A stretch of 48,966 bases of DNA from Spirochaetia bacterium. Lineage in GTDB: Bacteria > Spirochaetota > Spirochaetia > B11-G9. The stretch covers positions 1-48,966 of the forward strand of contig JAQIBN010000087.1 of NCBI GenBank assembly GCA_027859095.1, in the 5' to 3' direction. A model generated the notes under the pieces. The model saw only the letters and a program-made list of their open reading frames with translations, was not told where the DNA came from and did no database searches. Below, piece after piece: positions 10,343-32,775 of this stretch; the first letter of the stretch is position 1; every line of letters begins with the position of its first letter. Both the position numbers and the translations under genes were made by a program.

Positions 10343-10477
10343 CCAAATATTTCACTATTCCCACTGTAAAAGTGGCTTAAAAAAGTCTTTTATACTTTTA
10401 AAACCAGCCATCTTAAGAAACTATTATATTATTCCGTAAATCATCACTTTAAAATATATTTAATATTTTTATTTTAC

Positions 10478-10506
10478 TTGATTTATTTTGAAGTACAGTT
10501 TAATAT
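10478..10506 (+). promoter_or_regulatory. Candidate promoter of the arsR-sqr operon, giving a nearly leaderless mRNA
   Basis: TTGATT and TAATAT are separated by 17 bases. The -10 ends 8 bases before the ATG at 10515, so transcription would begin within a few bases of that start codon. The alternative TTG start at 10488 lies inside the promoter and no Shine-Dalgarno is present for either. Confidence 0.5.
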
Positions 10507-10514
10507 CTATTAAA

Positions 10515-10844: not shown

Positions 10845-10855
10845 GGATGGGGTTA

Positions 10856-12088: not shown

Positions 12089-12107
12089 ATTATAAGGAGA
12101 TATATTT

Positions 12108-12425: not shown

Positions 12426-12434
12426 GAGTTAATT

Positions 12435-12911: not shown

Positions 12912-12932
12912 ATATAAATATTGAATTTGAAC

Positions 12933-12972
12933 GTAGAGACGTAGCGTTCTATATAGCACGCTACGTCTCTAC
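12933..12972. terminator. 15-bp perfect hairpin between convergent operons (terminator or REP-like repeat)
   Basis: GTAGAGACGTAGCGT pairs exactly with ACGCTACGTCTCTAC across a 10-base loop. No long T run follows on either strand, so it could be a bidirectional terminator or a palindromic interspersed repeat of the 'GTAGAGACG...CGTCTCTAC' kind seen in several phyla. It separates the sulfide operon from the end of the Nqr-Nuo operon. Confidence 0.65.
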
Positions 12973-13001
12973 AAACCATAACGGTTGGATCCCTGTAAAA
13001 A

Positions 13002-13866: not shown

Positions 13867-14475
13867 TTATACCACTTCTTCTATAGTTATTGTATTTGTG
13901 GGACAAACGTAAGCACATGAGCCACAACCTATACATGTTTCTGCATATTTCTCAAATGGAGTTTTAACTGTTCTTTCCATACCCCTGGCAGAGAAACTTA
14001 TGGCATCTCTCATTGGTATTTCAGCACATGCTCTTACACATAATCCACATAGAATACAGTTAGTATCGACAATTGAGGGAGCATCATTAAACAGATACTT
14101 TTCAGCCGGTGTTTGTTCTTCACTATCCTCTGGCAGTCCAATCTCTTTAGCCAGGACTCTTAATTCACTAGCTTTAGGGCTTCTTGATATTAACATAGAC
14201 AGAATAAATCGTCTGGCCTGAATTACTTTGGAACTGTGAGTTTCAATAATCTGGCCTTCTCCAATTTTAGCTGTACAGGCAGGCATAAGTTTCTTCATAT
14301 CAGGGTTTCTTGTTGTTGCAACATCTACAAGACAGAGTCTGCAACCTCCAAAAGGTGTCAGATGTTCGTTATTACAGAGAGTGGGAATTTTAATTCCCTG
14401 TTTTGAAGCCGACTCCAAAATTGTCGTTTCATTTCCCTTTTCTATTATTTTTCCATTAAGTGTATATTTGATCAT
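13867..14475 (-). CDS. HoxU/HydA-N-like iron-sulfur protein without a hydrogenase domain
   Basis: 202 aa. A plant-type 2Fe-2S domain (LCNNEHLTPFGGCRLCLVDV with PACTAKI) is followed by two 4Fe-4S motifs, CILCGLCVRAC and CIGCGSCAYVC. The order resembles the N-terminus of NuoG, HoxU and [FeFe] hydrogenases. The His-Cys 4Fe-4S site that usually lies between them (HxxxCxxC) is missing; that place reads HSSKVIQARRFILSM. No H-cluster domain follows. It overlaps the NuoF-like gene by 4 bases and would carry electrons between that flavoprotein and another partner, possibly ferredoxin or the membrane complex encoded upstream. Confidence 0.85.
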   Translation of the reverse strand: MIKYTLNGKIIEKGNETTILESASKQGIKIPTLCNNEHLTPFGGCRLCLVDVATTRNPDMKKLMPACTAKIGEGQIIETHSSKVIQARRFILSMLISRSPKASELRVLAKEIGLPEDSEEQTPAEKYLFNDAPSIVDTNCILCGLCVRACAEIPMRDAISFSARGMERTVKTPFEKYAETCIGCGSCAYVCPTNTITIEEVV

Positions 14476-16268
14476 GATTCAATCCTTACAGCATCAAAGT
14501 TACAAACAGCTTTACAAATTCCACATTTAACACAGACCTCAGGATCGATAATGTGTATACCTTTTCTTTCCCCTGAAATAGCATCAACAGGACAGTCTCT
14601 GGCGCAGAGTGTACAACCAGTACATTTATCTGCCAGTATCGTATATTGAATTAGTGATTTACATTCCTTTGCAGGGCATCTGCCCTCTTTTATATGTGCA
14701 TCATATTCATCTCTAAAATATTTAAGTGTTGTTAAAACAGGGTTTGGAGCAGTAGCTCCCAAAGCACATAAAGAGGTTGACCCTATAAGCTCAGACATCT
14801 CTAACAGAATATCTATATCCTCTTCTTTTCCTTTCCCTTCTGTTATTCTTGTCAGGATATCAAGCATATGTCTTGTACCCTCCCGGCAAGGAGTACATTT
14901 TCCACAGGATTCCTGCTGGGTGAAGGCAAGAAAATATCTTGCAACCTCAACCATACAGTTGTCCTCATCCATGACTATCATACCACCGGATCCTACAATA
15001 GATCCAATTTTAGCAAAGGTATCATAACCTACTGGTGTGTCCAATAGGGACTCGGGTATACAACCTCCCGAAGGACCGCCGGTTTGAACGGCTTTAAACT
15101 TTTTGCCATTCATGACTCCACCGCCAATATCAAAAATGATATCCCGTACAGAGATTCCCATAGGAACTTCTACAAGGCCGGTATTATTTACTTTTCCAAC
15201 AAGAGAGAAAACCTTTGTTCCCTTACTTGTTTCTGTACCGATAGATGAATACCACGTTGCTCCACGATTTATAATATGTCTGATATTTGCCCAGGTTTCC
15301 ACATTATTTATATTAGTTGGTTTCCCCATATAACCAGCTACTGCCGGGTAAGGAGGTCGAACTCTTGGTTCTGGCATATTCCCTTCCAAAGAAGCTATTA
15401 AGGAAGTTTCTTCACCACAGACAAAAGCACCTGCGCCTCTGTTTACAGAGACATCAAATTCAAAACCAGTTCCAAAAATATCATCCCCTAATAATCCATA
15501 AGTTCTTGCATCTTTTATTGCTTTGTATATTCTTTCTACTGCCAGAGGGTACTCACCTCTTACATAAATAAATCCATGGGAGGCACCAATTGCATATGCT
15601 CCTATGGCCATTCCTTCCAAAATAACATGGGGATCTGATTCTACTATGGATCTATCCATAAATGCACCAGGGTCACCTTCATCAGCATTACATATAATAT
15701 ATTTTTCATCACCAGGAGAGTTCTTTGCAAATCCCCATTTCATGCCTGTAGAGAAACCACCTCCTCCACGACCTCTTAATCCAGAATCTTTAACTTCTTT
15801 AATTATCTCTTCAGGAGTCATTTCTGTAAGAGCTTTCGCAAGAGCAGAATAACCCTCTCTACCAATATATTCATCAATATTTTCAGGATCTATAAGCCCC
15901 CGGTTTGCCAGAGCTATAAGTTTCTGTTTTTTAAAAAAGCCAATATCTGAAAGCTTTGGAATGGGATCATCTCCCTCTTTTGGAACATACATATGCTTTT
16001 CTACGGGGCGGCCTTTAAGAAAATGTTCTTCCACAAGATAGGGAATATCTTTTTCTTCCAGCATTTCATAAAAAATATCTCCAGGTTGAACGATCATAAT
16101 TGGGCCTCTTTCACAAAACCCCTGACAACCTGTGTCTACAACCTGGATTTCATCCTGAAGGTTATGTTTTTCAAGCTCTCTGTTAAACGCTTTTTCGATA
16201 TCAAAAGCTCTGTTAGATACACAACCGGTACCTGCACAAAGCATAAGATGCATTCTATATTCCTGCAT
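14472..16268 (-). CDS. NuoF-type NADH-binding flavoprotein with extra iron-sulfur domains
   Basis: 598 aa. Domains in order: a thioredoxin-like 2Fe-2S domain (CAGTGCVSNRAF ... VDTGCQGFC, residues 10-60), the NuoF Rossmann-like domain binding FMN and NADH (GLRGRGGGGFSTGMKWGFAK, about 165-185), an SLBB domain, the NuoF 4Fe-4S site (ESCGKCTPCREGTRHM) and a C-terminal pair of 4Fe-4S motifs (CTGCTLCARDCP, CVKCGICKAVC). This is the layout of HydB/HndC and other flavin-based bifurcating enzymes rather than of plain complex I NuoF. It oxidises or forms NADH. It overlaps its neighbours on both sides. No hydrogenase subunit is encoded here, so its partner in this operon is open. Confidence 0.92.
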   Translation of the reverse strand: MQEYRMHLMLCAGTGCVSNRAFDIEKAFNRELEKHNLQDEIQVVDTGCQGFCERGPIMIVQPGDIFYEMLEEKDIPYLVEEHFLKGRPVEKHMYVPKEGDDPIPKLSDIGFFKKQKLIALANRGLIDPENIDEYIGREGYSALAKALTEMTPEEIIKEVKDSGLRGRGGGGFSTGMKWGFAKNSPGDEKYIICNADEGDPGAFMDRSIVESDPHVILEGMAIGAYAIGASHGFIYVRGEYPLAVERIYKAIKDARTYGLLGDDIFGTGFEFDVSVNRGAGAFVCGEETSLIASLEGNMPEPRVRPPYPAVAGYMGKPTNINNVETWANIRHIINRGATWYSSIGTETSKGTKVFSLVGKVNNTGLVEVPMGISVRDIIFDIGGGVMNGKKFKAVQTGGPSGGCIPESLLDTPVGYDTFAKIGSIVGSGGMIVMDEDNCMVEVARYFLAFTQQESCGKCTPCREGTRHMLDILTRITEGKGKEEDIDILLEMSELIGSTSLCALGATAPNPVLTTLKYFRDEYDAHIKEGRCPAKECKSLIQYTILADKCTGCTLCARDCPVDAISGERKGIHIIDPEVCVKCGICKAVCNFDAVRIES

Positions 16269-16648
16269 TAACCTACCCTCTCACTTCCTCTGCCAAGGGC
16301 AGATTCTTCTACAATCTTTCCATTCATTACATGTTCTTTAAAAATTGTCTTAACTTTTTCTTTAGTCAGATGAACATATTTAACAGGAGACTCCCCCTGA
16401 ATTTCAATTGTTGCCATAGGTTCATGACTACAAAGTCCAGCACATCCAGTAGTTGTAAACAAAATATCTTTTTGCCCCGAAGCTTCCAGCTCATCTAAAA
16501 AGGCTTTCATAATATCTCTTGCCCCGGTAGCAATTCCACATGTTCCCATATGGACAGTAATTTTAGCTCTACCAGCTCCGCTTCGCAGGTTTGTAGATGC
16601 TTCCATTTTTTCGCTGATTTTCTTCAAGTCTTCAGGCTTCAAATTCAT
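16268..16648 (-). CDS. Thioredoxin-like 2Fe-2S ferredoxin (HndB-like)
   Basis: About 126 aa from ATG 16648 (MNLKPEDL), which follows GGAGG; the track start at 16663 lies upstream of that ribosome site. HMGTCGIATGARDIMKAFL and FTTTGCAGLCSHEPMATI supply four cysteines of a thioredoxin-like 2Fe-2S cluster. Such a stand-alone protein accompanies NADP-reducing hydrogenase operons. It ends in an ATG overlap with the NuoF-like gene. It should pass electrons to or from the NuoF-like flavoprotein, whose own N-terminal domain is a related fold. Confidence 0.88.
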   Translation of the reverse strand: MNLKPEDLKKISEKMEASTNLRSGAGRAKITVHMGTCGIATGARDIMKAFLDELEASGQKDILFTTTGCAGLCSHEPMATIEIQGESPVKYVHLTKEKVKTIFKEHVMNGKIVEESALGRGSERVG

Positions 16649-16668
16649 ATTTACCTCCAACAACGCCG

Positions 16669-17091
16669 CTATTCAGAATCGCTTTTAAAATTATAAAAAA
16701 AATCAATATCCGGATGGGATAATCTTAAGACCTGAATCGTAAGCATTATATCCCCTATAGGTTTCATATCCGGATGATCCTTTTTAAAAACCGCTTTTAT
16801 TTTGGTACCAACTCCTTTATTGGAGTCAATCTCAAATTCCCCTTCTGTTTCCAGGGCTGCCTGTTTTAACAGGGACACCCCAAATCCAAAATATTTCCCT
16901 TCTTTTGATGAATAGAAAGGACTGGTTACAAGTTTTATTGTTTCCTCATCCATCCCTGATCCATCATCTATTATCAAAAGACACAGAAAATTATCTGTTT
17001 TCTTTTCTTCCAATGTAACTTCAATTCGACTTGCTCTGGCACGAATTGAATTCTCTACTACATCAAGTATGTGTAGGGAAAGATCTTCCAT
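16669..17091 (-). CDS. Stand-alone histidine-kinase-like ATPase
   Basis: 140 aa. LHILDVVENSIRARAS is the N-box, LLIIDDGSGMDEETI the G1 box and KYFGFGVSLLKQAA the G2 region of a GHKL ATP-binding domain. There is no phospho-accepting His domain and no membrane segment. Proteins of this kind occur in [FeFe]-hydrogenase operons next to PHP and DRTGG proteins, where their job is not known to me. It overlaps the PHP gene by one base. It might act as an anti-sigma-type or switch kinase sensing redox or nucleotide state; that is inference. Confidence 0.85.
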   Translation of the reverse strand: MEDLSLHILDVVENSIRARASRIEVTLEEKKTDNFLCLLIIDDGSGMDEETIKLVTSPFYSSKEGKYFGFGVSLLKQAALETEGEFEIDSNKGVGTKIKAVFKKDHPDMKPIGDIMLTIQVLRLSHPDIDFFYNFKSDSE

Positions 17092-17831
17092 TATCTAACC
17101 ACTCCACGATTGTTTTTACCATGGATTGCCAATATTAATTCTTTAACATTGGGTTCCAAAAGGCTAAACTCTGTCATTCTTTTTCCAATATCCTCAATAT
17201 AATGGGCATCGGAACATGATATATAAGGATACCCGTATAAATATCCTGGTTTCCCTACATTTTCTCTGTCAACAGTCATTTCACTGTTGATTATTTCTAT
17301 ACCATCCAGTTTCAATCCTTCAGGTATAAATCCCAGTTGGCTGAGAATACTGAAAGACTCTCTATCAACATGTGATGCTACTACCATTCCCCCGTTTAGA
17401 TGAACAAGATCAACAATACGGTCAATACTGAGGCTTGTCGCTCCAAACAAGAGTTTTTCACTAACTCCCAGAATCTTATCATTGGAATCAAGAAAAACCT
17501 GATCTCCAAAAGCTTCAGGATTATTGATACCCGGAAGATTGGCCTGAACAATCATCTCCATATTATAAAGATCTTCGTTCCGGTCAAAATACCCAAGAAG
17601 ATGTACTTCCTCTTCGGAACAAATTTCCATTCCACCAATAACTGTAAGTCCTTCCCTTTCACCGGCAGTTCGTACAGCTTCAAAATTACCGGCACTGTTA
17701 TGATCAGTGATTGCGATCATATCCAGTCCCTTTTCTTTAGACTTCGCCACTATCCTTTCTGGCGTCATCCCGTAATCTCCACAAGGAGATAAAATTGTAT
17801 GAAGATGAAGGTCAGCCTTATAAATCTTCAT
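17091..17831 (-). CDS. PHP-domain metal-dependent phosphoesterase
   Basis: 246 aa. KADLHLHTILSPCGDYGM, ITDHNSAGNFEAV, VASHVDRES and ISCSDAHYI give the four metal-binding motifs of the PHP fold, all with their His/Asp residues. The family hydrolyses phosphate esters, including histidinol phosphate and nucleotide 3',5'-bisphosphates. In this setting it sits between a DRTGG protein and a GHKL ATPase within an electron-transfer operon, so a regulatory role on a small phosphorylated signal is more plausible than a biosynthetic one. The start at 17831 has a short gap to the upstream gene. Confidence 0.87.
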   Translation of the reverse strand: MKIYKADLHLHTILSPCGDYGMTPERIVAKSKEKGLDMIAITDHNSAGNFEAVRTAGEREGLTVIGGMEICSEEEVHLLGYFDRNEDLYNMEMIVQANLPGINNPEAFGDQVFLDSNDKILGVSEKLLFGATSLSIDRIVDLVHLNGGMVVASHVDRESFSILSQLGFIPEGLKLDGIEIINSEMTVDRENVGKPGYLYGYPYISCSDAHYIEDIGKRMTEFSLLEPNVKELILAIHGKNNRGVVR

Positions 17832-17840
17832 TATTTTATA

Positions 17841-18179
17841 TCAACCAGGAATTCCCAATTGATATAACCTTCCTGTTGTTTCAAAAGCACTTTCGCAACT
17901 ACTCAATACTGTTAAGCCCGCTTCTTCTGCTTTAGTTGCGGCTGCAGGAATTAATTGCCTGTTTTGAATCAGAATTATACCAGCCATATTTTTCATCAAA
18001 GCAATTGCAACAACATTTACATGGGTCTGGTAAGTTATCCATATGTCTCCCTCTTTTCCATGGGCAATTACATCACTCATTAGATCACTTACATATCCTC
18101 TAAGAACTTCAGTCTGGAGGGGGACTTCACCAGAAAGCAGTTTTAGGTCCAGTTTCTCTATAATTTCATTCAGGTGCAT
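17841..18179 (-). CDS. DRTGG-domain protein (second copy)
   Basis: 112 aa. The motif VLRGYVSDLMSDVIAHGKEGDIWIT matches the DRTGG-domain core also found in the paralogue at 19094-19429. DRTGG domains bind nucleotides in some PTA- and CBS-linked proteins. GIILIQNRQLIPAAATKAEEAGLTVLS forms the second alpha/beta half. It overlaps the CBS-ATPase gene by 10 bases. Two DRTGG copies flanking a CBS-ATPase suggest one assembly that reads adenine-nucleotide or redox state; inferred from context. Confidence 0.82.
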   Translation of the reverse strand: MHLNEIIEKLDLKLLSGEVPLQTEVLRGYVSDLMSDVIAHGKEGDIWITYQTHVNVVAIALMKNMAGIILIQNRQLIPAAATKAEEAGLTVLSSCESAFETTGRLYQLGIPG

Positions 18180-19090
18180 TTTCCCTCCATATTAATATCT
18201 ACAATTAATACTGTTCCTTCACCTACTGTGGATTTTATAGTAAAATTATCTGAGCAATTTTTAATGTTCTGAAGGCCCATTCCAGCACCAAACCCAAGTT
18301 CTCGAACCCAGTCGGGAGCTGTTGAATACCCTGGTTCCATGGCTTTCTCCACATCCGGAATTCCTGGTCCATGGTCTTCTATTTCCATATTTAGTAATTC
18401 TGAACTTAAAGTGATTGTGACTGTTCCACCTCCGGCATAAGCCAGTAAATTTATTTCTGCTTCGTATGCTGCAATGGCAGTTTTTCTAACTAAATTTCCA
18501 GGTAAGCCCAGTTTATATAAATCTGTTCGAATTGAACTTGAAATTTCTCCTCCATATTCCAGAGATTTTTGTTCGACAATGTAATTTAAAGTTAAAAGGG
18601 CAGATACTGATTCGATATTATTTAATATACAGTTATATTCTTTCTTACTTTCTTTCTCATCATCAAGATCAAGTACGGCTAGAACTCCTTCCATCATTGT
18701 GCATCTGCATATTACACCGAGGAATTTATTACTCTCATTTTCAACAACCGGAAGTCCTCGTAACCCTATAAGTTCCAATTCTTTTACTGCAGTAATTACA
18801 GGTTCGTCAGGATGTAGAGTTTTAAAATCAATATCCATTATTTCGGAAACAGGAACATCTCCCATTTCAGAAGTTAACCAGTCCACATATCCTTCTATAG
18901 ATATTTGTCCCACCAACTTTTCCCCTGTAAGAACAGGTATACATGCATAATTATTTTCTTTTATTACATACTTTAGTTCACTCATTTTCGTTTCAGGAGT
19001 AACTCTAGTTACATCAGTTCTCATTATTTTTTCTACGCGAATTTCATAGATCCTTTCTATGACGCTTTGTGAAATACGAATCTGATTCAT
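18170..19090 (-). CDS. CBS-pair protein with C-terminal GHKL ATPase domain
   Basis: 306 aa. Two CBS repeats come first (MRTDVTRVTPETKMSELKYV and MDIDFKTLHPDEPVITAVKE, residues 20-130), a fold that binds adenosyl ligands. The C-terminal part is an RsbW-like ATPase: AAYEAEINLLAYAGGG (N-box-like), IEDHGPGIPDVEKA (G1) and FGAGMGLQNIKN (G2). The pair suggests an ATP-dependent switch controlled by adenylate level. It starts 3 bases after the first DRTGG gene. It acts in the cytoplasm, with no membrane segment visible. The target is unknown. Confidence 0.87.
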   Translation of the reverse strand: MNQIRISQSVIERIYEIRVEKIMRTDVTRVTPETKMSELKYVIKENNYACIPVLTGEKLVGQISIEGYVDWLTSEMGDVPVSEIMDIDFKTLHPDEPVITAVKELELIGLRGLPVVENESNKFLGVICRCTMMEGVLAVLDLDDEKESKKEYNCILNNIESVSALLTLNYIVEQKSLEYGGEISSSIRTDLYKLGLPGNLVRKTAIAAYEAEINLLAYAGGGTVTITLSSELLNMEIEDHGPGIPDVEKAMEPGYSTAPDWVRELGFGAGMGLQNIKNCSDNFTIKSTVGEGTVLIVDINMEGKCT

Positions 19091-19093: not shown

Positions 19094-19429
19094 TTAACCC
19101 TGTAATCCAGCAGCAAAAAGTTTGCCTGTTACCTGGAAAGTTGAAAAATCTGTTACTAGAATTGTAACTCTTTTAGTATTTGCCAGCTCTATTGTTTTTT
19201 TTTCAGGGTATTTCCCATTTGTATAGCAAATAGCAGGAATCTCTACCATTTCTACTGTTCGTATGGTTTGCTGATTTGTCAAACTGGTAATAAGAAGCTG
19301 AGCTTCTCTTCCAAATGTAAGAACATCACTCATAAGATCAGAAACATAAATACTCTTTATTTCTCTGGACAAATGTCCTGAAGAGAGTATTTTTGCATTT
19401 AATATCTGGCATAGTTCTTTTATTTTCAT
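19094..19429 (-). CDS. DRTGG-domain protein (first copy)
   Basis: 111 aa. IKSIYVSDLMSDVLTFGREAQLLIT is shared with the copy at 17841-18179, including SDLMSDV. The remainder, VEIPAICYTNGKYPEKKTIELA, is more diverged and has a cysteine not found in the paralogue. The start codon overlaps the NuoE-like stop. It may bind a nucleotide and report to the CBS-ATPase encoded next. Confidence 0.82.
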   Translation of the reverse strand: MKIKELCQILNAKILSSGHLSREIKSIYVSDLMSDVLTFGREAQLLITSLTNQQTIRTVEMVEIPAICYTNGKYPEKKTIELANTKRVTILVTDFSTFQVTGKLFAAGLQG

Positions 19430-19875
19430 TATGTATCTTTCTTCATCAGTTTTTTAATAGTTTTTTGTGTCATTTTACCATGGAATTCTCCATCCACAGT
19501 TACAAGCGGCCCCAGAGCACAAGCACCAACACAATTAACTACATCCAGGGTATACTCTCCATCAGCTGTAGTTTCACCTGCTTTAATTTTCAGTTCTCTT
19601 TCTATTGTATCAACAATTAATGGAGCTCCCCTGACATGACATGCCGTTCCTACACAAGCACAAACATGATGCTTTCCTATAGGTTCAAGTCTAAAAGTTG
19701 AATAAAATGTTACCAGACTGTAAAATCTGCTTAGGGGAATATTTAGGCGTCTGGATGCCTCTCTTAGATATTCCTCAGGAAGATATCCAAATTCTTCATG
19801 CATATCCTGAAGGAGGCCAATTAGGGAGCCTTTCACTTTTTCATATTCTTCCAATAATTCGTTAAGTTTTTCCAT
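19429..19875 (-). CDS. NuoE-type 2Fe-2S subunit
   Basis: 148 aa. MHEEFGYLPEEYLREASRRLNIPLSRFYSLVTFYSTF is the conserved N-terminal helical part. CACVGTACHVRGA and VNCVGACALGPLV carry the four cysteines of the thioredoxin-like 2Fe-2S cluster. NuoE partners NuoF in complex I, NAD-linked hydrogenases and bifurcating enzymes. The partner NuoF lies five regulatory genes downstream in the same operon. It starts 21 bases after the shortened nqrF, which is the junction between the membrane complex and the NADH module. Confidence 0.92.
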   Translation of the reverse strand: MEKLNELLEEYEKVKGSLIGLLQDMHEEFGYLPEEYLREASRRLNIPLSRFYSLVTFYSTFRLEPIGKHHVCACVGTACHVRGAPLIVDTIERELKIKAGETTADGEYTLDVVNCVGACALGPLVTVDGEFHGKMTQKTIKKLMKKDT

Positions 19876-19896: not shown

Positions 19897-20346
19897 TTAT
19901 TGTATTTTCACTAGCCATTTTTTATTTGCATCAAAGTTCTTACTTAAGACCATTTGGTGCACAACTGTAAGAAAATCTGGTATTTCGATGGTAATATCGT
20001 TTTTAATTTTTACCTGACACGCAAGTCTCATATTATTCAGTTTTTCCTGACGACTCATCCAAATTTCTTCTGTTGGAAGAATCATTCCTCCACCCTCAGG
20101 TACTTGAACTTTACAATAACCACAGCTTCCTTTTCCACCACATGAATTGGAAACATTAAATCCATTGTCATTAAGAGCTGTTAAAAGATTAATACCGCCT
20201 TCAACAGTGATCTCTTTAACTTCGTCACCCTCAAGAACGCTTATTTTACAATCTCCATAACTAACAAGGAGTTTGTCAGCTATTAAAAGTACAATTGTAA
20301 TTAAAAGAAGTAGTCCATTCATTACTAATACTGGTACAAAATTCAT
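19897..20346 (-). CDS. nqrF: NqrF-like protein reduced to membrane anchor and 2Fe-2S domain
   Basis: 149 aa; full NqrF, as at 34012-35106, is about 365-410. One membrane helix (VLVMNGLLLLITIVLLIADKLL) is followed by SCGGKGSCGYCKV ... RLACQ, the plant-type 2Fe-2S site of NqrF. After EIPDFLTVVHQ the protein ends. The FAD-binding (RxYS) and NADH-binding domains are absent, and the downstream DNA holds no remnant of them in frame. The end is a clean stop, followed by NuoE with its own ribosome site, so this looks like an evolved short form rather than a recent break. It could accept electrons from the NuoEF module and hand them to the membrane subunits. Confidence 0.87.
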   Translation of the reverse strand: MNFVPVLVMNGLLLLITIVLLIADKLLVSYGDCKISVLEGDEVKEITVEGGINLLTALNDNGFNVSNSCGGKGSCGYCKVQVPEGGGMILPTEEIWMSRQEKLNNMRLACQVKIKNDITIEIPDFLTVVHQMVLSKNFDANKKWLVKIQ

Positions 20347-20933
20347 TAGACAGTCACCATCCCGGCAAATCCAAGAAACGCTAGGGAAAGAATCCCTGCA
20401 ATTGTCATGATTATTCCCGGTCCCTTCATTCCCCTGGGAATATCTCCAACAAGGGCTAGCTTTTCATTTATGGCAGCAACTATAACTATTGCAATTATCC
20501 AGCCTATAGAAGCTCCAAAAGCAAATACTACAGTCTGAAGGTAGTTGTAAGATCTTATGACCATAAACAGTGAGACTGCAAGGACAGTACAGTTTACAGT
20601 GATTAATGGAAGAAATATTCCAAATGCTGCCTGGAGTACAGGAAAGAATTTTTCCATTATCATTTCAACTAACTGAACAGTTCCAGCAATTACAATTATG
20701 AATACAATATAGTAAATTAGCTCACTGTGGAGTGGTACCAGAATGTAATTGTAAATAGGCCAGTTTATAAGTGCTGTAAGTGTTACTACAAAAATAACTG
20801 CAAATCCCATTCCACTTGCTGTCCGGAGGCTCTTTGAAAGAGAAATAAATGGACACATTCCAAGAAGATATGTAAAAGCAATATTTTGTGTTAATACAGC
20901 AGCAATAAATATCATTAATAAATTAATAGCCAT
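20346..20933 (-). CDS. nqrE: Nqr/Rnf membrane subunit E (RnfA homologue), operon 1
   Basis: 195 aa, six membrane helices. LGMCPFISLS and LITVNCTVLAV keep the two half-channel cysteines that, together with those of subunit D, ligate the intramembrane iron-sulfur centre in NqrD/E and RnfA/E. The end, DIPRGMKGPGIIMTIAGILSLAFLGFAGM, is closer to NqrE than to RnfA. It forms part of the ion-translocating core. Gene order A-B-C-D-E-F and overlaps with neighbours support the operon. The paralogue at 33408-33995 is clearly related but diverged. Confidence 0.92.
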   Translation of the reverse strand: MAINLLMIFIAAVLTQNIAFTYLLGMCPFISLSKSLRTASGMGFAVIFVVTLTALINWPIYNYILVPLHSELIYYIVFIIVIAGTVQLVEMIMEKFFPVLQAAFGIFLPLITVNCTVLAVSLFMVIRSYNYLQTVVFAFGASIGWIIAIVIVAAINEKLALVGDIPRGMKGPGIIMTIAGILSLAFLGFAGMVTV

Positions 20934-20944: not shown

Positions 20945-21568
20945 TTAATCCGATTCAACTTTAGCAAGTGTTCTTGTAATCCAGATAAACAAACTCACCA
21001 CAAAGAACGCTCCAGGTGCCATGGAGATAACCACCCATTTAGGGAAACTGTCAGGCATTACCTGAAATCCTAATAGAGTACCAAATCCAAGTATTTCTCT
21101 CACAATGGCAATTGCTACAAGTGTATAGGTGTAGGAAAATCCATTTGCTACAGAATCCAGAACTGAGTGGAGAACATTATTCTGGCTATAAAAAGCTTCT
21201 GCCCTTCCCATAATTATACAATTAGTAATAATTAACCCTACATAAGGACCAATAGATTCACTTATTTCAGGGAAATAAGCTTTTAGAACCCTGTCGACTA
21301 CAATTACAAAAGAGGCAATTACAATCATGTAGGTAATCATCCTTACTCTTCGGGGGATAATATTTCTTAATCCAGAAATGAGTAAAGATGTTGCTAATAA
21401 GACAAAGGTAACACCCGCGCCCATTGCTATTGCATTTGCAACTGTGTTTGAAACTGCAAGAGCCGAACAAATACCAAGTACCATCGAGGAGATTGGATGA
21501 TCTCTCCATATCCCATCCAGTACTGTCTGATAACTTTTAGTTTTCTTTATTTCAGTAAACGTCACCAT
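20945..21568 (-). CDS. nqrD: Nqr/Rnf membrane subunit D (RnfE homologue), operon 1
   Basis: 207 aa, six membrane helices. LGICSALAVSNTV and VGLIITNCIIMGRAEAF hold the conserved cysteines of the intramembrane iron-sulfur site. The family signature GRAEAFYSQNN is intact. It pairs with subunit E in an inverted arrangement across the membrane. The start codon overlaps the stop of nqrC, and nqrE follows after 11 bases. Confidence 0.92.
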   Translation of the reverse strand: MVTFTEIKKTKSYQTVLDGIWRDHPISSMVLGICSALAVSNTVANAIAMGAGVTFVLLATSLLISGLRNIIPRRVRMITYMIVIASFVIVVDRVLKAYFPEISESIGPYVGLIITNCIIMGRAEAFYSQNNVLHSVLDSVANGFSYTYTLVAIAIVREILGFGTLLGFQVMPDSFPKWVVISMAPGAFFVVSLFIWITRTLAKVESD

Positions 21569-22143
21569 CAGTCTCCTTTAAAGGTGGAATTAAATATTTT
21601 GTAGTCATCATTAATGACCTTAATCAGTGCAATACACGACATTGTAGCACCTGTAATGCCATCAACATCTGTCTTGTTTGAAGATTTCCCAGCTCCAACA
21701 AGGATTAGTTCAGGATCAAATTGTTTACCAATAAAAGAATCCAGAAATTGCTTCTCTGTAATACGGCTTCCCAGTCCAGGAGTTTCCACCTGGGATTTTA
21801 TTCCAACAGCAGTGATAGTTTTTTTATCATCAGCCATTACCGCAACTCCAATAATGGGGCCTTGAAATCCTGAGCCCTCAAAAGGAAAGGCCATCTCTCC
21901 GGAAGAAACTTTGTAAATGGTCATTTCCGGATACACAATTGTACTAATATTATCTGTGAACACTTTCTCAATTGTTTCATCTGTATACTCAATTCCAAAA
22001 GTTTTCAAAATTGTACTTAATTCTTTTATTTTTTCATTTTTGGCAATCATGGGTTCTGTAAATGCATCTACACCAACAAGAGTTGTTGCCAGGATAGTTC
22101 CAAGAATTAGTACAAAGACAATCATCATTATTTTGTCTTTCAT
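21568..22143 (-). CDS. nqrC: Nqr/Rnf subunit C (RnfG homologue), covalent-FMN protein, operon 1
   Basis: 191 aa. One N-terminal membrane helix (IMMIVFVLILGTILATTLV) anchors a periplasmic FMN-binding domain. VETPGLGSRI and VDGITGATMSC are the family motifs; the Thr of TGATMS is the site where ApbE attaches FMN through phosphate. The length is nearer to RnfG (about 200) than to NqrC (about 260). No apbE gene is in the window. It relays electrons on the outer side of the membrane between the D/E iron-sulfur centre and subunit B. Confidence 0.92.
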   Translation of the reverse strand: MKDKIMMIVFVLILGTILATTLVGVDAFTEPMIAKNEKIKELSTILKTFGIEYTDETIEKVFTDNISTIVYPEMTIYKVSSGEMAFPFEGSGFQGPIIGVAVMADDKKTITAVGIKSQVETPGLGSRITEKQFLDSFIGKQFDPELILVGAGKSSNKTDVDGITGATMSCIALIKVINDDYKIFNSTFKGD

Positions 22144-23174
22144 ATCTTATTATTCCTATAAATTGTTTTTAAAACCATGTGATCTATGAGTGGATTTAAA
22201 CCGTTCATAAATATAATACTGAACATGACCCCTTCTGTATAACCAGCAAAGCTTCTTATAAGAAATGTTAATAATCCACATCCAAAACCATAGATATATT
22301 TACCTATTTTTGTTGTTGGTCCTGTAACAGGATCTGTTGCCATAAACATTGCTCCAAATAAGAGTCCACCGCTGAGGATGCTGAAAACAGGAGGGGCTAT
22401 AGCAGGGGATATCATATTTCCAATAAATGAAAATACTAATACTGTTCCAAGGTATGAAACAGGGATTCTCCAGTTGGATACTTTGGAGAGCATAAGAAAG
22501 ATTCCACCAACAATAATTCCAAGACTGAAAACTTCGCCCATACTTCCTGCATGCAGCCCTCTCAATAGATCCCAATAAGGTGTCATTTCTCCGGAAATCT
22601 GGAAAACACCAAGAGGGGTTGCAGATGTTATTACATCTGCGAAAGGTTCTTTCCATGATGCTGACATAAGTTGTGGAAATGCGATTGTAATAAACAGTCT
22701 TCCAACCAGAGCCGGGTTAAAGATATTTCTTCCTGTTCCGCCAAATATTTCCTTTCCAAAAAATGTTCCAAATATTGATCCGATTGCAACAGCCCATAAG
22801 GGTAGGGTTGGGGGCAGAACCAGTGCAAAAATAAGACCTGTTACAAGAAAACCTTCTTCAATTTCCCTTTCCCTTACTATTGCAAAAGATACTTCTACAA
22901 TCCCTCCGGCAATGTAGGATGTCATAATTATTGCTAAAGCATACAATCCGTAAAAATAGACTGCAGCTGCTGTTGCAGGCAGAAGGCCTATTATAGCAAA
23001 TGACATATATCTTTTTATTTCAATATGATCTTTAATATGTGGTGCTCCATGAGTTACTATACTGGTCCCAAATATTATCCCTTCCATTGTCTCAAAAATA
23101 GATTTAAATTTATGTAATGATTTTTTTTCTCCCATTTGATGAATGAGTTTTTGGACTTTACTCTGCTGCTTCAT
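22140..23174 (-). CDS. nqrB: Nqr/Rnf membrane subunit B (RnfD homologue), operon 1
   Basis: 344 aa. After an N-terminal tail (THGAPHIKDHIEIKRYM, NqrB-like) come about ten membrane helices. EEGFLVTGLIFALVLPP and GKEIFGGTGRNIFNPALVGR are hallmark NqrB sequences. ITSATPLGVF contains the Thr that carries covalent FMN in NqrB/RnfD (SATP). It binds riboflavin and FMN and is the likely quinone-facing, ion-moving subunit. It overlaps nqrA by 17 bases and nqrC by 4. The shortened N-terminus is intermediate between NqrB and RnfD. Confidence 0.92.
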   Translation of the reverse strand: MKQQSKVQKLIHQMGEKKSLHKFKSIFETMEGIIFGTSIVTHGAPHIKDHIEIKRYMSFAIIGLLPATAAAVYFYGLYALAIIMTSYIAGGIVEVSFAIVREREIEEGFLVTGLIFALVLPPTLPLWAVAIGSIFGTFFGKEIFGGTGRNIFNPALVGRLFITIAFPQLMSASWKEPFADVITSATPLGVFQISGEMTPYWDLLRGLHAGSMGEVFSLGIIVGGIFLMLSKVSNWRIPVSYLGTVLVFSFIGNMISPAIAPPVFSILSGGLLFGAMFMATDPVTGPTTKIGKYIYGFGCGLLTFLIRSFAGYTEGVMFSIIFMNGLNPLIDHMVLKTIYRNNKI

Positions 23175-24693
23175 TAGTCTGCTCCTTTGGCTGCATAGGC
23201 GAGCAGCCCACTTGTTGGCGACCAGCCTTCAATCCAATAAGATTATAGGAATTGATAAAATCATCCTCTTTTACATAAGCATCTTCCAGAAGTTTTTTCT
23301 TCCCTTCTTTTAGATAAGCTGCAATTGGTATTTTTGCTGTACATACATAAGTACAAAGATTACAGTCTATACATTTAAATATTCCATACTGAACAGCAGT
23401 TTCATCCAGTCTGTCTCTTTCAACATATGGAAAAAGAACATTTGGAAGTATTCCTGCAGGACAAACATTTTGACAAAATCCACATGAAAGGCATGCTCTC
23501 TGTTCGCCATTTAAGTTTGTATTTATAGTCTTTTTAAAAGGCAGAATCTTTGCAAGAAATGTGTTAGAAAAAGAATCTTTTTTAAAACCTGGTTTTGCAA
23601 AAAACATCAGATCCTGTCCTCTTTTTTCCTCAAGAGCAATAAGTACTTCAGTATTTCTTCCAATAGGTGATTCAAAATTGGATTTTTTCCCTGTTAGAAC
23701 ACTGTTGTTGATAAAACGAATATCTTCCTTATCTTCCAGCAATAGTCTCCCTGTGGAAATATCTGATATAAGTGTTCCCACTTTTAAACTTAAGTGGATA
23801 TTATCATTAAAAACAGGCCCGGCCAAAGCCACTATTTTTTCTGTTAAAGGTTTTCCTTCTACTACTGCTTCATATACATGACAAACGTCCTGTATTCCAA
23901 GTATAACAATACCCTTATTTATACCCTTGTAATTAGCAGGAATATCAATATTTAGTACAGTTTTTGCAAGCACAGAGTCATGGCTCTGAGGATATTTTGC
24001 TTTAGTTTTATGAAATGAAATCGATAAATTATCTGAAACTGCATTATCAATAACCTGAAACCATGTAGAGGTATTTGTACTCATTGCTATGTGAATAGAG
24101 GCTTTTCCCATAATTTTAGCTAGAATGGACAGTCCTTCAGTAAACTTTTTTACACCATCATCCTTCAGGAATACAGAGACGTCAGGGTTAAAAACCTCGG
24201 AATCTGTTGAATGAATTATAATATGCTGAACATCCTCTGGTTCTATTACTGATGATTTGAACCCTGTGGGAATACCACTTGATCCAAGAGAACTTGTTCC
24301 GGATAAATAAATAATTTTCTCCAGATCTTTTCCACCTAGTTTTCTCCAGTCATTTGTAAAACCAGGTACTTTTTCCAATTCAGTGGAATCTGTGCTGGTA
24401 ATTTTGACAACACTAACCTGTTGTTCCAAATAATCCATTTTTTTAACAGATTCAACAATACCATTTACAGAGCTGTGTATAGGAGAAGAAACAGAATCAT
24501 CATCCTGCCATATAATCTGTCCTGCACTGACTTTATCCCCTGTTCGTACAAAGGGTTTTATCTTTGTGTCTGTTTTACTTAAGGGTATGTAGAGATGTTC
24601 TGGTAATACCTGAACGATGAGTTCCTGTGAGGGCTGTCCCTTAAACTGCTTTAATTCATACCCACCGGAAATTTTTCCATTTAGTAATTTCAT
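23158..24693 (-). CDS. nqrA: NqrA/RnfC hybrid subunit with two 4Fe-4S motifs, operon 1
   Basis: 511 aa. The N-terminus has a lipoyl-like lobe (VSSPIHSSVNGIVESVKK), then a Rossmann-like domain in which the RnfC NADH/FMN loop GGAGFPT is replaced by LGSSGIPTG and the NAxECEPY segment by HSTDSEVFNPDVSV, as in NqrA. The C-terminus has CLSCGFCQNVC and CIDCNLCTYVC, two complete 4Fe-4S motifs as in RnfC; usual NqrA keeps only vestiges of the second. It therefore looks like an NqrA that retains RnfC clusters and does not bind NADH itself. It is the first gene of a 16-gene operon and is preceded by a promoter at 24769-24796. Confidence 0.88.
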   Translation of the reverse strand: MKLLNGKISGGYELKQFKGQPSQELIVQVLPEHLYIPLSKTDTKIKPFVRTGDKVSAGQIIWQDDDSVSSPIHSSVNGIVESVKKMDYLEQQVSVVKITSTDSTELEKVPGFTNDWRKLGGKDLEKIIYLSGTSSLGSSGIPTGFKSSVIEPEDVQHIIIHSTDSEVFNPDVSVFLKDDGVKKFTEGLSILAKIMGKASIHIAMSTNTSTWFQVIDNAVSDNLSISFHKTKAKYPQSHDSVLAKTVLNIDIPANYKGINKGIVILGIQDVCHVYEAVVEGKPLTEKIVALAGPVFNDNIHLSLKVGTLISDISTGRLLLEDKEDIRFINNSVLTGKKSNFESPIGRNTEVLIALEEKRGQDLMFFAKPGFKKDSFSNTFLAKILPFKKTINTNLNGEQRACLSCGFCQNVCPAGILPNVLFPYVERDRLDETAVQYGIFKCIDCNLCTYVCTAKIPIAAYLKEGKKKLLEDAYVKEDDFINSYNLIGLKAGRQQVGCSPMQPKEQTNEAAE

Positions 24694-24992: not shown

Positions 24993-25454
24993 ATGATTAG
25001 TTTTAAAAAGCTTGAAGATATTTTAAGAGAAACTATAAAGTGGGAAGAACAGATGAAAGATCTTTATGATGTTGCTGAGCTAGGATTACGAGGCAAAGAA
25101 GCAAAAGAACTTTTAGTTTTTCTAAAAGATTCTCATTACAGGCATCTGAATGTCCTTCAAAATATAAATGTAAATCATTATGGGCCTGATGAATGGATTA
25201 AATTTACAGCTGATTTTGGAGTTCTCCAGCAGATACCGCAACATCAAATTACACAACATTCCAGTGCTGAGGATATTTTTTCCAGGGTAAGTAATTATGA
25301 GACATCTCTTAAATTAGTTTATCAAAGGGTGTCTGAACATACTGTCTCTCAAAGTCAAACAGAATTATTTTCCTCCCTGGCACTTATGAAAGAAAATCAG
25401 TTATCTGCTATCAGTAATTTTATAGAGAGTTATTTTAATCCTAATGTGGGGTAG
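24993..25454 (+). CDS. Ferritin-like four-helix protein, triad 1 (function unknown)
   Basis: 153 aa, almost all helical by composition. It resembles rubrerythrin-type four-helix bundles in layout: KWEEQMKDLYDVA in helix 1, LKDSHYRHLNVL in helix 2, YETSLKLVYQRV in helix 3 and LMKENQLSAISNF in helix 4. The ligand pattern E...H is incomplete (helix 4 has ENQ where ExxH would be expected), so a diiron site is doubtful. Two paralogues occur, at 28576-29028 and 35143-35598. It is followed 3 bases later by a histidine kinase and then a response regulator. The repeated association suggests an input or accessory protein for the kinase. I do not recognise a named family. Confidence 0.72.
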   Translation: MISFKKLEDILRETIKWEEQMKDLYDVAELGLRGKEAKELLVFLKDSHYRHLNVLQNINVNHYGPDEWIKFTADFGVLQQIPQHQITQHSSAEDIFSRVSNYETSLKLVYQRVSEHTVSQSQTELFSSLALMKENQLSAISNFIESYFNPNVG

Positions 25455-28575: not shown

Positions 28576-29028
28576 CTACTCCGCAAAATTTTTCTTTATA
28601 AAATTCCTAATTCTATCAACTTGATTTACCTTGAAATGGAAAAGTGATTCAAATAAAGCTTTTTGGCTTTCGGAGACAAGGGATTTAGCTCTGCCCAGAT
28701 AAAAATTTTTCAGCTTTTCTTCATATTTAACAACATTCTCAAATATTTCCAGAGGTGGTGAGTTTTTGTCAATAGAACGAACCGGTATCTCAGATTCAAT
28801 GGATTTGTCATCGGTAAACTGCATCCATGAAATATGTCCGTAATCTTTAAGGTTTAGATTTTTCAATACCTCAAAATGCTTTTGATGATTCTGTTTAAGG
28901 AAAACAACCAGTTCTTTCGACTGTTCATTTTTTACCCCATAACTTGCAATATCATATAAATCCAAAATTTCCTGTTCCCATTTTAGCGTCAATTTAAATA
29001 CCTGCTCTAAATCCCTAAATGTTTTCAT
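28576..29028 (-). CDS. Ferritin-like four-helix protein, second paralogue (unpaired)
   Basis: About 150 aa from ATG 29028 (MKTFRDLEQVF), which follows GGAGGGAGCT; the track start at 29040 precedes that site. LKWEQEILDLYDIASYGV and LKQNHQKHFEVLKNL match helices 1 and 2 of the triad 1 protein, and KYEEKLKNFYLGRAKSL matches helix 3. SHGHISW-like ligands are not preserved, so metal binding is uncertain. It is transcribed divergently from the response regulator gene at 29222, with which it shares the upstream region, and has no kinase of its own beside it. Confidence 0.7.
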   Translation of the reverse strand: MKTFRDLEQVFKLTLKWEQEILDLYDIASYGVKNEQSKELVVFLKQNHQKHFEVLKNLNLKDYGHISWMQFTDDKSIESEIPVRSIDKNSPPLEIFENVVKYEEKLKNFYLGRAKSLVSESQKALFESLFHFKVNQVDRIRNFIKKNFAE

Positions 29029-29117
29029 AGCTCCCTCCATTTGCAGGATAAATCAGCCGGCTCTTATTTGCAATGATTTTTTTGTATTTTAACAACAAGG
29101 ACAAAAGAATTTATATT

Positions 29118-29637: not shown

Positions 29638-31068
29638 GTGAGAATGCGAGGCGGATATACGCCAAAAATCGATGGAAGACCGAGTAGTATTTTAAAGAAG
29701 ATAGCTCTTTCTTCTTCGTTAACTATCGATCTGCATAGAAATGAAAGGTTTTATAAACCTTTAGTAGAAGAGGGGCAGAGAGTCAAAATTGGTGATCTTA
29801 TTGCGAGTGCGGATCTGAATTTACTTATAGAAAAAGGGGATTCAATTGAAGAAAATGATCCGGTAGAGAAAGAAGCTCAGGTTCTCTACCTGCCTTCTCC
29901 TGCAGACGGGATAATTCATTTAAATATTGAGACAGAGACAGGAAAGCCATTTTCAATTATCCTGTCAGACATAGGATCATCAGTAGATAAAAATCCCCAG
30001 ATAGTGAAAGATCCTAACAGATTAACCCCTATTGAAGCCAGAAAAGTCCTGGTGGAGAGAGGTATTTGGCAGTACATCTGGAGTTCAGGAACCAACGGAA
30101 TCGCAGATATCTCCGGCAAAAAAAAACCAAAGGCAATAGTTATTAACACAATCATTGCTGAACCATTCAGAACCAGAGGAAAGGTAATCCTCAATAATTT
30201 CTGGCACAGTATTATTAAAGGGTTAAGTTACCTCCCTCTGCTTTTGGAGGATTATGGTACAATAGAATTTATCCTTACAGAAAAAAAAGATCCTATTGTG
30301 CAGCTGATGTTAAAAGAACTTACAGGAAAAGCCTGGGTTAAATTCCATTTTGTAGATGTAAAATATCCAATAGAAAAGCCGGAGATACTTAACAAACTTA
30401 TCAGAAAAGAAAAAAACAGATTCAATCAGGATAATGAGATTTGGGTTGTAGACATACAGACTGTTGAAGCAATAGGAATCTGCCTTGGGAAAGGTGTTCC
30501 CATGAGCAGGAGGATTGTAGCCATGGGAGGACCGGCATTCCCTGATCCAATGCACATTAATGTCAGAATAGGAACTCCATTAAAGGATATTATACCGGAA
30601 AATATCAATCTAAATACAACTTTGGTGCTCCGGGGCGGGCTGTTTTTAGGAGAACCCGTGGATCCAGAAAACAGCTCAGTAGGTTTTGATGATGATGCTT
30701 TCTTCTTTATTCCAGTAAAACAAACAAGGGAATTCCTCTCTTTTATCAAGCCAGGATTCAGTAAGAGATCAATATTTCCCAATTTTGCAGGTAGAATTGA
30801 TAGGGACCTGTCAAGTCAGCTGCGCGGTGAACTGCGACCTTGTATTGCTTGTGGAAAGTGCCAGGAAGTTTGCCCCGTTAATCTGATGCCTCAAATTATT
30901 CATCGATATCTTTATACGGATAGACTGGACGAGGCACAAAAGCTGGGACTAGATAACTGTATTGAATGTAATCTATGTACTTTCGTATGTACCTCAAAAA
31001 TTGAACTGAAGGTACAGTTTGTAAATGCAAAAAACATGCTTCTAATGGAGCAGGAAGGGAACTTATGA
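29638..31068 (+). CDS. nqrA: NqrA/RnfC hybrid subunit with two 4Fe-4S motifs, operon 2
   Basis: 476 aa from GTG 29638 after GGGGG; ATG 29644 is an alternative. MRGGYTPKIDG begins as in NqrA. The lipoyl-like lobe (LPSPADGIIHLNIE) is followed by a Rossmann-like domain with RGIWQYIWSSGTNGIAD and AIVINTIIAEPFRTR, in the places of the RnfC glycine loop and ECEPY motif, so NADH binding is not expected. CIACGKCQEVC and CIECNLCTFVC are two complete 4Fe-4S motifs. The design equals that of the operon 1 subunit at 23158-24693. It may receive electrons from or give them to ferredoxin or NqrF. Confidence 0.88.
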   Translation: MRMRGGYTPKIDGRPSSILKKIALSSSLTIDLHRNERFYKPLVEEGQRVKIGDLIASADLNLLIEKGDSIEENDPVEKEAQVLYLPSPADGIIHLNIETETGKPFSIILSDIGSSVDKNPQIVKDPNRLTPIEARKVLVERGIWQYIWSSGTNGIADISGKKKPKAIVINTIIAEPFRTRGKVILNNFWHSIIKGLSYLPLLLEDYGTIEFILTEKKDPIVQLMLKELTGKAWVKFHFVDVKYPIEKPEILNKLIRKEKNRFNQDNEIWVVDIQTVEAIGICLGKGVPMSRRIVAMGGPAFPDPMHINVRIGTPLKDIIPENINLNTTLVLRGGLFLGEPVDPENSSVGFDDDAFFFIPVKQTREFLSFIKPGFSKRSIFPNFAGRIDRDLSSQLRGELRPCIACGKCQEVCPVNLMPQIIHRYLYTDRLDEAQKLGLDNCIECNLCTFVCTSKIELKVQFVNAKNMLLMEQEGNL

Positions 31069-32153
31069 AATTATTAAGATTATTCTTTGATAAAATAGAG
31101 CCCCTTTTTGATGAGGGCAAAGCGTTATCACTTTTTCATCCTGTTTATTCTATGTTTGACAACATGATGTTTTCCAGTAATGAAAAAACACCCAATGCAC
31201 CCTTCGGACGTGATCCGATCGACATTAAAAGATACATGTTTATTGTAGTTATAGCTCTTACGCCGGCTTTTCTTGGATCTCTTTATTTCTATGGACTGAG
31301 GATATTATGGATGCTCATTGTCTCCTATGCTGTAGGGGCAGTAGTTGAGATTGCATTTGCAATAATACGAAAAGAAGAAGTTAATGAAGGCTTTCTTGTT
31401 ACCGGTTTTATATTCCCTCTTATTCTTCCCCCTGGAATCCCTCTATGGATGGTAGCTGTAGGTATGGCATTCGGGGTTCTTGTTGGAAAAGAGGTATTTG
31501 GAGGTACAGGAAGAAATATCTTTAATCCGGCATTGGTCGGTCGTATTTTCCTTGCCCTGGGATATCCCTCAGCCATGAGCGGATCCTGGGTGAGCCCTGG
31601 AAGCGGATCCTTAGGAAACCTGCTAAAAAACTTCCAGCTTGCTGCCCCGGATGTATTAAGTTCAGCAACTCCCCTTGTCCAGGCGAAAAATGGAATTTTT
31701 ATGCCCTTGAAAGATCTCTTTTTTGGAAATATTCTGGGAAGCGCAGGAGAAACATCTGCGCTTCTTATAATACTTGGAGGATTGATAGTACTTTTTGCCG
31801 GAATAGCAAACTGGAGAACAATCCTTTCAATAATCCTCTCATTTGCGGGTTTTAACCTCCTCCTGAATATCCTGTCCCCCGGAACGGCAAACCCTGTTCT
31901 TTTTAATATGTTATCTGGAGGTTTTCTTTTTGGCACTTTTTTCATGGCCACTGATCCGGTATCTTCTCCTATCACCATTTCAGCCAAATGGGTCTATGGA
32001 ATATTTATCGGGTTGATAGCCTTGCTGATTAGAACATTTTCAGGATTTGTTGAGGGAATGATGTTTGCTATACTTTTAGGCAATATTTTTTCTCCTCTTT
32101 TTGATGAAGTAGTAATACGAGTACGGATGAAACATTATGCAAAAAAACTCTAA
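31065..32153 (+). CDS. nqrB: Nqr/Rnf membrane subunit B, operon 2
   Basis: 362 aa with about ten membrane helices. GRDPIDIKRYMFI, NEGFLVTGFIFPLILPPG and GKEVFGGTGRNIFNPALVGR are NqrB landmarks. LSSATPLVQAKNG contains the Thr for covalent FMN. It overlaps nqrA2 by 4 bases. Compared with the operon 1 copy it has an additional segment of about 15 residues after the MSGSWV region. It is the quinone-side membrane subunit. Confidence 0.92.
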   Translation: MKLLRLFFDKIEPLFDEGKALSLFHPVYSMFDNMMFSSNEKTPNAPFGRDPIDIKRYMFIVVIALTPAFLGSLYFYGLRILWMLIVSYAVGAVVEIAFAIIRKEEVNEGFLVTGFIFPLILPPGIPLWMVAVGMAFGVLVGKEVFGGTGRNIFNPALVGRIFLALGYPSAMSGSWVSPGSGSLGNLLKNFQLAAPDVLSSATPLVQAKNGIFMPLKDLFFGNILGSAGETSALLIILGGLIVLFAGIANWRTILSIILSFAGFNLLLNILSPGTANPVLFNMLSGGFLFGTFFMATDPVSSPITISAKWVYGIFIGLIALLIRTFSGFVEGMMFAILLGNIFSPLFDEVVIRVRMKHYAKKL

Positions 32154-32775
32154 TTTAAGGACAATTGGCTTTGCAACCATCCTGGGTCTGGTTTGTTCTA
32201 TTTTACTTACCTTTGCGAATATACAGACAAAACCACTCCGTCTGGCCAATGAAAAAGCAGAAGAACTGACAAATTACCTCTTCGTATTGGATGTTCCTGT
32301 ATCTCCTGGGGCTAAAGCCGATGATTTACTGAAAATATTTGATAAGTCAATACGGGTGAAAGAAGCCGGAGGTATCAAATTCTATGAGTATTATCCTGAA
32401 AATAGTTCCGATGACAAACCTGTAGCCGTAGCCGTAGCTTTTAACGGACCGGGATTATGGGACAAGATTGGCGGCGTAATTGCATTGGAACCAGACCTTA
32501 AAACCATTAAGGGAATAAGTTTTTATAAACAGGCAGAAACACCGGGATTGGGTGGTGAAATTGCCAGTGACTGGTTTCAATCCCAATTCATTGGTAAATC
32601 GATCATTTCACCTTCAGGAACACCTGGATTCAAAATTTTAAAGCCCGAAGCAGCTACAGATTCAAATTCAGTTGATGGAATAAGCGGGGCGACAATGACA
32701 TCAAGCAGAGTCGAGGTTATCCTTGAAAAACTTGCAGGCACGATCTCGAACGCAAGGAGTGCATATGAGCAATAA
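32137..32775 (+). CDS. nqrC: Nqr/Rnf subunit C, covalent-FMN protein, operon 2
   Basis: 212 aa. One membrane helix (TIGFATILGLVCSILLTFANI) is followed by the periplasmic FMN domain, with AETPGLGGEIASDWF and VDGISGATMTSSRVE. SGATMT is the flavinylation site. GLWDKIGGVIALEPDLKTIKG matches the strand region of NqrC. It overlaps nqrB2 by 17 bases. ApbE would be needed to load FMN and is not encoded here. Confidence 0.92.
   Translation: MQKNSNLRTIGFATILGLVCSILLTFANIQTKPLRLANEKAEELTNYLFVLDVPVSPGAKADDLLKIFDKSIRVKEAGGIKFYEYYPENSSDDKPVAVAVAFNGPGLWDKIGGVIALEPDLKTIKGISFYKQAETPGLGGEIASDWFQSQFIGKSIISPSGTPGFKILKPEAATDSNSVDGISGATMTSSRVEVILEKLAGTISNARSAYEQ

Follow-up and report, generated by a model that had tools for sequence, protein, structure and literature searches.

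The window analysed here, a 48,966-nucleotide stretch of a Spirochaetia bacterium genome, contains two Nqr/Rnf-type operons that lie ~5 kb apart and are divergently oriented, operon 1 on the minus strand and operon 2 on the plus strand. Subunits of both were identified using Pfam and NCBIfam profiles. Operon 1 runs from the A-subunit gene, starting at 24693, down to a polyprenyl diphosphate synthase gene whose end lies at 13002; adjacent genes either overlap or have gaps of no more than ~21 bp between them, as expected for one transcription unit. The A-subunit A1 (23158–24693, 511 residues) is an RnfC/NqrA homologue, assigned by these profiles and by alignment with solved RnfC structures. It is followed by an NqrB-like B-subunit (22140–23174) with the FMN-threonine motif TSATPL and a Gly-Gly pair at the position of VcNqrB residues 140–141, an RnfG/NqrC-type C-subunit (21568–22143) with the FMN attachment motif DGITGAT, and the D- (NqrD/RnfE, 20945–21568) and E-subunits (NqrE/RnfA, 20346–20933), each with both intramembrane cluster cysteine positions present. 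The next gene, F1 (19897–20346), encodes a truncated NqrF of 149 residues that consists of the N-terminal anchor and the [2Fe-2S] region (ligands C69, C75, C78 and C110) only.

Downstream of F1 and on the same strand lies a NuoE/NuoF/HoxU-like (Bfu) module, which is absent from the initial annotation of this DNA. It begins with a BfuC/NuoE-like thioredoxin-fold [2Fe-2S] subunit (19429–19875), followed by a DRTGG-domain protein (19094–19429), a protein combining CBS and HATPase_c domains (18170–19090), a second DRTGG-like protein (17841–18179), a PHP-domain protein (17091–17831), an HATPase protein (16669–17091) and a stand-alone thioredoxin-like [2Fe-2S] protein that is BfuD-like (16268–16663). 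The second DRTGG-like protein has no NCBIfam match and was recognised as a homologue of the first, with a conserved place in relatives. A BfuB/NuoF-like subunit of 598 residues (14472–16268) and a BfuA/HoxU-like subunit of 202 residues (13867–14475) complete the module, the latter with ligands for one [2Fe-2S] and two [4Fe-4S] clusters and without an H-cluster domain. The last gene of the unit is the polyprenyl diphosphate synthase (13002–13865), retained in several relatives; its product may possibly serve in quinone side chain synthesis.

Operon 2 comprises A2 (29638–31068, 476 residues), which has an NqrA-like fold according to profiles, RnfC alignment and structural model, an NqrB-like B-subunit (31065–32153) with the FMN motif SSATPL and Gly-Ala at the 140–141 position, an NqrC-type C-subunit with DGISGAT (32137–32775), a D-subunit scoring above the NqrD cut-off (32762–33415) and an NqrE/RnfA-type E-subunit (33402–33995). 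The final gene (34012–35106) encodes a full-length NqrF of 364 residues with both the [2Fe-2S] and the FAD/NADH domain, scoring 273.9 bits against TIGR01941, slightly below the cut-off of 295.

Both A1 and A2 match the RnfC as well as the NqrA models, and neither protein reaches either curated cut-off; a Pfam Complex1_51K match is also found in A1. Alignment with solved RnfC (7zc6, 9eri and 8ahx) bears out the earlier description of two A-subunits that possess two full CxxCxxCxxxC motifs and are devoid of the GGAGFPT and ECEPY elements. In each protein all eight motif cysteines align with RnfC [4Fe-4S] ligands, the two sets in A1 being C401/404/407/411 and C441/444/447/451. The position of GGAGFPT is occupied by GSSGIPT in A1 and is lost in A2, and that of ECEPY by DSEVF and IAEPF, respectively. 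Remnants of these FMN/NADH elements can be discerned as GIPT in A1 and its relatives, and as EPF in A2 and sulfate reducers. All 13 aligned RnfC sequences have both the GGxxFP-type and ECEPY elements together with the eight cysteines, and no complete cluster set occurs in the 10 classical NqrA of the alignment.

Retention of the eight cysteines with neither FMN/NADH element defines a type we refer to as FeS-NqrA, comprising 67 sequences from many phyla, A1 and A2 included. One carrier, Desulfonema magnum, is available in culture. The collection derives from a scan seeded partly with the second-cluster motif, the first cluster lying outside the seed, and the frequency of FeS-NqrA in the set is hence biased and does not reflect prevalence. 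Two further NqrA, from Planctomycetes Pan216 (L072) and an Elusimicrobia MAG (L117), are partly decayed, with the first cysteine set broken and the second intact. As judged from these sequences, A-subunits of this kind are not peculiar to the present genome and represent a broad Nqr type that is apparently ancestral.

Structure prediction places A1 and A2 between the two families. The AlphaFold model of A1 (pLDDT 86.8) is closest to RnfC (9eri chain C, Z 35.8, 3.0 Å, 430 aligned residues), compared to a Z of 30.1 for NqrA, while the A2 model (pLDDT 79.0) is closest to NqrA (Z 32.6, 3.8 Å, 407 aligned residues), compared to a Z of 31.0 for RnfC. In the models A1 is thus nearer RnfC and A2 slightly nearer NqrA. 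As the A1 clusters would be located where RnfC passes electrons between the riboflavin of the B-subunit and the cytosol, they may constitute a second electron port; for the A-subunits in general, the clusters may provide such a port, assist docking, or be a relic.

In both operons the B-subunit matches the NqrB model better than the RnfD model (288.9 versus 269.0 bits in operon 1, 344.2 versus 231.2 bits in operon 2), in agreement with their original designation as NqrB-like. Both operons retain the threonines to which FMN is attached in B and C, as well as the four cysteines of the intramembrane cluster in D and E, and ApbE is encoded in the genome. The quinone-linked Gly140-Gly141 pair of NqrB corresponds to Gly-Gly in operon 1 and Gly-Ala in operon 2; this position reads GF or GL in many FeS-Nqr, and GL in some classical Nqr. 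Given the Gly-Ala of operon 2 and the GF/GL of many FeS-Nqr, quinone use is not uniform by the Gly-Gly criterion. Genes resembling MenA and UbiE/MenG are located at 5860–7480, identified solely by inspection of the open reading frames.

A comparison to Na+-NQR (NqrABCDEF, Vibrio cholerae 8a1w and 7xk3) shows that the B–E flavin and cluster residues, the operon order, the NqrB-type N-terminal extension and, for operon 2, the full NqrF are shared. In contrast, known NqrA is cofactor-free while A1 and A2 carry ligands for two [4Fe-4S] clusters, and operon 1 differs further in having an F1 without FAD/NADH domain and the Bfu module downstream. Relative to Rnf (RnfCDGEAB; 7zc6, 9eri and 8ahx), the A-subunits keep the RnfC fold and both [4Fe-4S] ligand sets, but the operons have no RnfB, the RnfC FMN/NADH elements are missing, the core falls outside the Rnf clade, and a true Rnf is encoded separately. 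It could be argued that the A-subunit clusters are non-functional leftovers and that both complexes are plain NADH:quinone pumps of the ordinary Na+-NQR kind, as the NqrB-like B-subunits and the full NqrF of operon 2 would suggest. We consider this unlikely: all eight cysteines are kept in 67 sequences across several phyla and deep branches, a conservation that the scan seed favours for the second-cluster cysteines only and that argues for selection on the ligands, while operon 1 is without an NADH-binding NqrF.

The evolutionary position of both operons was determined from a concatenated B+D+E tree (751 columns, 66 operons) with Rnf as root, a rooting that presumes Nqr to be derived from Rnf. 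The clade containing operon 1 (clade I) branches first, followed by that containing operon 2 (clade II) and then by the remaining Nqr, a third group made up of Desulfobacterota-type FeS-Nqr and classical Nqr (Bacteroidota, Ruegeria and others). The Nqr side, inclusive of both operons, is separated from Rnf with support of 100/100 (SH-aLRT 100 under a mixture model), and the split of Rnf plus the operon 1 clade from the rest receives 99/98. The same order of Rnf, clade I, clade II and rest is recovered in the mixture-model tree and in a tree of the A-subunit N-terminus that excludes the cluster domain. The subunits hence do not fall within ordinary Rnf, and the initial proposal that the complexes are intermediate between Rnf and Nqr and record the transition is upheld by their placement on the Nqr side. 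Nearly all relatives compared are MAGs.

Cluster-free NqrA operons are nested within the FeS-A operons in the B+D+E tree. A topology that unites all FeS-A operons as a single clade was rejected (AU test, p = 8.9e-14), whereas one joining clades I and II is compatible with the data (p 0.119), hence the exact branching order of these two clades is not firm. Since the FeS-A clades branch first and cluster-free NqrA are nested inside them, cluster loss from the A-subunit appears to be late. On the sequence evidence, the clusters were probably lost only after NqrF had been recruited and the FMN/NADH site had gone, leaving a stepwise record of the Rnf-to-Nqr transition. The coexistence of cluster-containing and cluster-free A-subunits in related lineages could alternatively be explained by regain, an Nqr-type A-subunit having recombined with an RnfC-like cluster domain. 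This appears very improbable, as the A N-terminal domain alone yields the same order and decayed intermediates (L072, L117) exist.

The published scenario invokes rnfB loss, decay of the RnfC cofactor site and NqrF recruitment, with an origin in Chlorobi/Bacteroidetes (PMC4014512, PMC12174285). Reyes-Prieto et al. (2014, PMC4014512) describe NqrA as having lost its clusters and report early-branching 'anomalous' Desulfobacteraceae Nqr, which probably belong to the FeS-NqrA group. The transition was previously argued from its end-points only; living forms that combine NqrF with two A-subunit clusters provide an order of events, which is testable in culture through D. magnum. Bacteroidota are not basal on the Nqr side of our B+D+E tree, and the tree order refines the scenario of PMC4014512 with its Chlorobi/Bacteroidetes origin.

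The view that the complexes use NqrF rather than RnfB holds for operon 2, with its NqrF of 364 residues, and in so far as rnfB is found in neither operon; it does not hold for the F-subunit of operon 1, which at 149 residues is without an FAD/NADH domain. A search of the genome for an RnfB that might complete either complex returned a single match above the RnfB cut-off, located on another contig (C288) inside a complete canonical rnfCDGEAB operon whose RnfC displays GGATFPA and ECEPY. As this RnfB is part of its own complete operon, it was rejected as the missing partner of operon 1 or 2. A fourth Rnf/Nqr-type operon of the genome (contig C301; L171, 4675–8523) encodes B, C, D, E and a full NqrF, with no A; its B-subunit (300 residues) is without the N-terminal extension, an RseC-like gene adjoins it, and in the tree it diverges early within the Nqr side, on a long branch.

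F1 retains the transmembrane anchor and four [2Fe-2S] cysteines, with Fer2 as its sole domain. The possibility that F1 is a damaged NqrF or results from misassembly was rejected, given that the protein measures 149–150 residues in most relatives and that BfuC lies directly downstream. A chimeric contig was likewise rejected, as L051, L052 and L066 also have the two operons next to each other. The cassette order is identical in the Spirochaetota loci L050, L051, L053, L054, L060, L063, L069, L156 and L157, giving about ten Spirochaetota MAGs in which this order is kept (L053 and L040 represent one MAG, counted once). In three Planctomycetota MAGs (L055, L154 and L155; identity 64–100%) F1 and the NuoE-like BfuC form a single open frame. 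Conservation of this arrangement across several phyla points to more than chance. The F-subunit is without the FAD domain in every cassette-bearing operon seen, and operons with truncated F and Bfu form an inner clade of clade I (support 100/99; mixture model 100). Other members of clade I, from Omnitrophota and Frackibacter, have a full NqrF and no Bfu cassette. As these cassette-less operons keep the complete protein, the simplest reading is that the Bfu module took the place of the FAD domain of NqrF.

BfuB aligns end to end with the HydB subunits of bifurcating hydrogenases (7t2r, E 6e-247; 7q4v, E 4e-244) with all cluster cysteines conserved (8/8). Every FeS ligand is present, including an N-terminal [2Fe-2S] and two C-terminal [4Fe-4S] sets; non-bifurcating NuoF does not have these additional N- and C-terminal clusters (Schut et al. 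2022, PMC9304861). The four ligand cysteines of BfuC are similarly conserved (8/8), and the BfuA-like subunit is without the His-Cys3 set of NuoG. In the Planctomycetota locus L055, BfuB (10033–13116, 1027 residues) carries a GltD/NfnB-like FAD domain in place of the C-terminal ferredoxin domain; this fusion is absent from L154 and L155 and was for that reason left out of the evidence.

Taken together, we assign a probability of roughly two in three, on evidence that is entirely comparative, to both operons encoding Nqr-side redox-driven ion pumps, derived from Rnf and short of classical Na+-NQR, with operon 1 representing an "Nqr-Bfu" type. Operon 2 most likely works like Na+-NQR since a full NqrF is present: electrons would pass from NADH through F, D/E, C and B to menaquinone with concomitant ion pumping, and the A-subunit clusters would be either a port that was kept or a structural remnant. 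In operon 1, NqrF is reduced to its membrane-bound [2Fe-2S] part, and the BfuABC module would take over NADH entry. NADH and reduced ferredoxin would be confurcated at BfuB/C, electrons then flowing via F1 and the core to menaquinone while Na+ is presumably pumped. By analogy with Nuo-Bfu (PMC9304861), ferredoxin input would raise the driving force above that available from NADH alone. The ferredoxin entry besides NADH that had been put forward initially is unsupported in the case of operon 2; in operon 1 it is plausible through the adjacent Bfu proteins, and not through the A-subunit. It is quite possible, and proposed here tentatively, that BfuABC confurcates NADH and ferredoxin through the NqrF stump into a Na+-pumping Nqr core whose A-subunit provides a second [4Fe-4S] port of the RnfC kind, in a group that preserves stages of the Rnf-to-Nqr transition in which the clusters were the last to be lost.

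Electron flow could also be envisaged in the Rnf direction, from a donor to F1, the B-subunit riboflavin and the A1 clusters, with Bfu replacing the FMN/NADH site of RnfC and reducing NAD+ (and ferredoxin). A1 keeps both RnfC clusters and is structurally closer to RnfC than to NqrA, and the homology of RnfC and NuoF, evident from the Complex1_51K match, makes a NuoF-module swap conceivable. However, BfuC adjoins F1 in the operons checked, and in the three Planctomycetota genomes its fusion partner is F1 and not A; furthermore, it is F, on the input side, that has lost the FAD/NADH domain, and the operon 1 B-subunit has the Gly-Gly of NqrB, which together render this direction improbable. Likewise, the Bfu gene products could form a soluble enzyme of their own, of the hydrogenase type but without H-cluster, whose genes are only co-transcribed with a core served by another F such as the NqrF on C301. 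The DRTGG, CBS-HATPase, PHP, HATPase, thioredoxin, NuoF- and HoxU-like composition of the cassette resembles that of bifurcating hydrogenase cassettes. Yet this is hard to reconcile with the F1–BfuC fusion in three genomes, or with the restriction of FAD-less F to cassette operons when cassette-less operons of the same clade have a full F. The [FeFe] hydrogenase has its own BfuB on C52, as well as HydA, the only H-cluster protein detected in the genome, and the NqrF on C301 comes with B-, C-, D- and E-subunits of its own. We hence regard a separate Bfu enzyme as rather improbable.

The Bfu family includes BfuABC in HydABC, NiFe-HydABCSL, Nfn-Bfu, Mbh-Bfu and Nuo-Bfu (Schut et al. 2022, PMC9304861). 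Operon 1 resembles these in the FeS ligands of BfuB and BfuC, which are as in bifurcating HydB, in its BfuA-like third subunit and in the pairing with a pump as proposed for Nuo-Bfu, and is distinct in that the pump itself has an Nqr/Rnf-type core. In PMC9304861 a search by term gave no match for 'Nqr' and one for 'Rnf', and no description of FeS-NqrA or Nqr-Bfu was found in the open-licence literature searched. If correct, Nqr-Bfu would add a third ion pump to the two for which a union with a bifurcating module has been proposed, Mbh-Bfu and Nuo-Bfu, and would offer a route for a NADH:menaquinone Na+ pump to gain additional driving force from ferredoxin.

Genes for a sulfide-dehydrogenase-like flavoprotein and for DsrC and DsrE family proteins (10847–12911) adjoin the end of operon 1, which suggests sulfur metabolism. 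Both Nqr operons are flanked by three similar-looking proteins of ~150 residues with no Pfam match (24993–25454, 28576–29040 and 35143–35598), accompanied by histidine kinases and response regulators.
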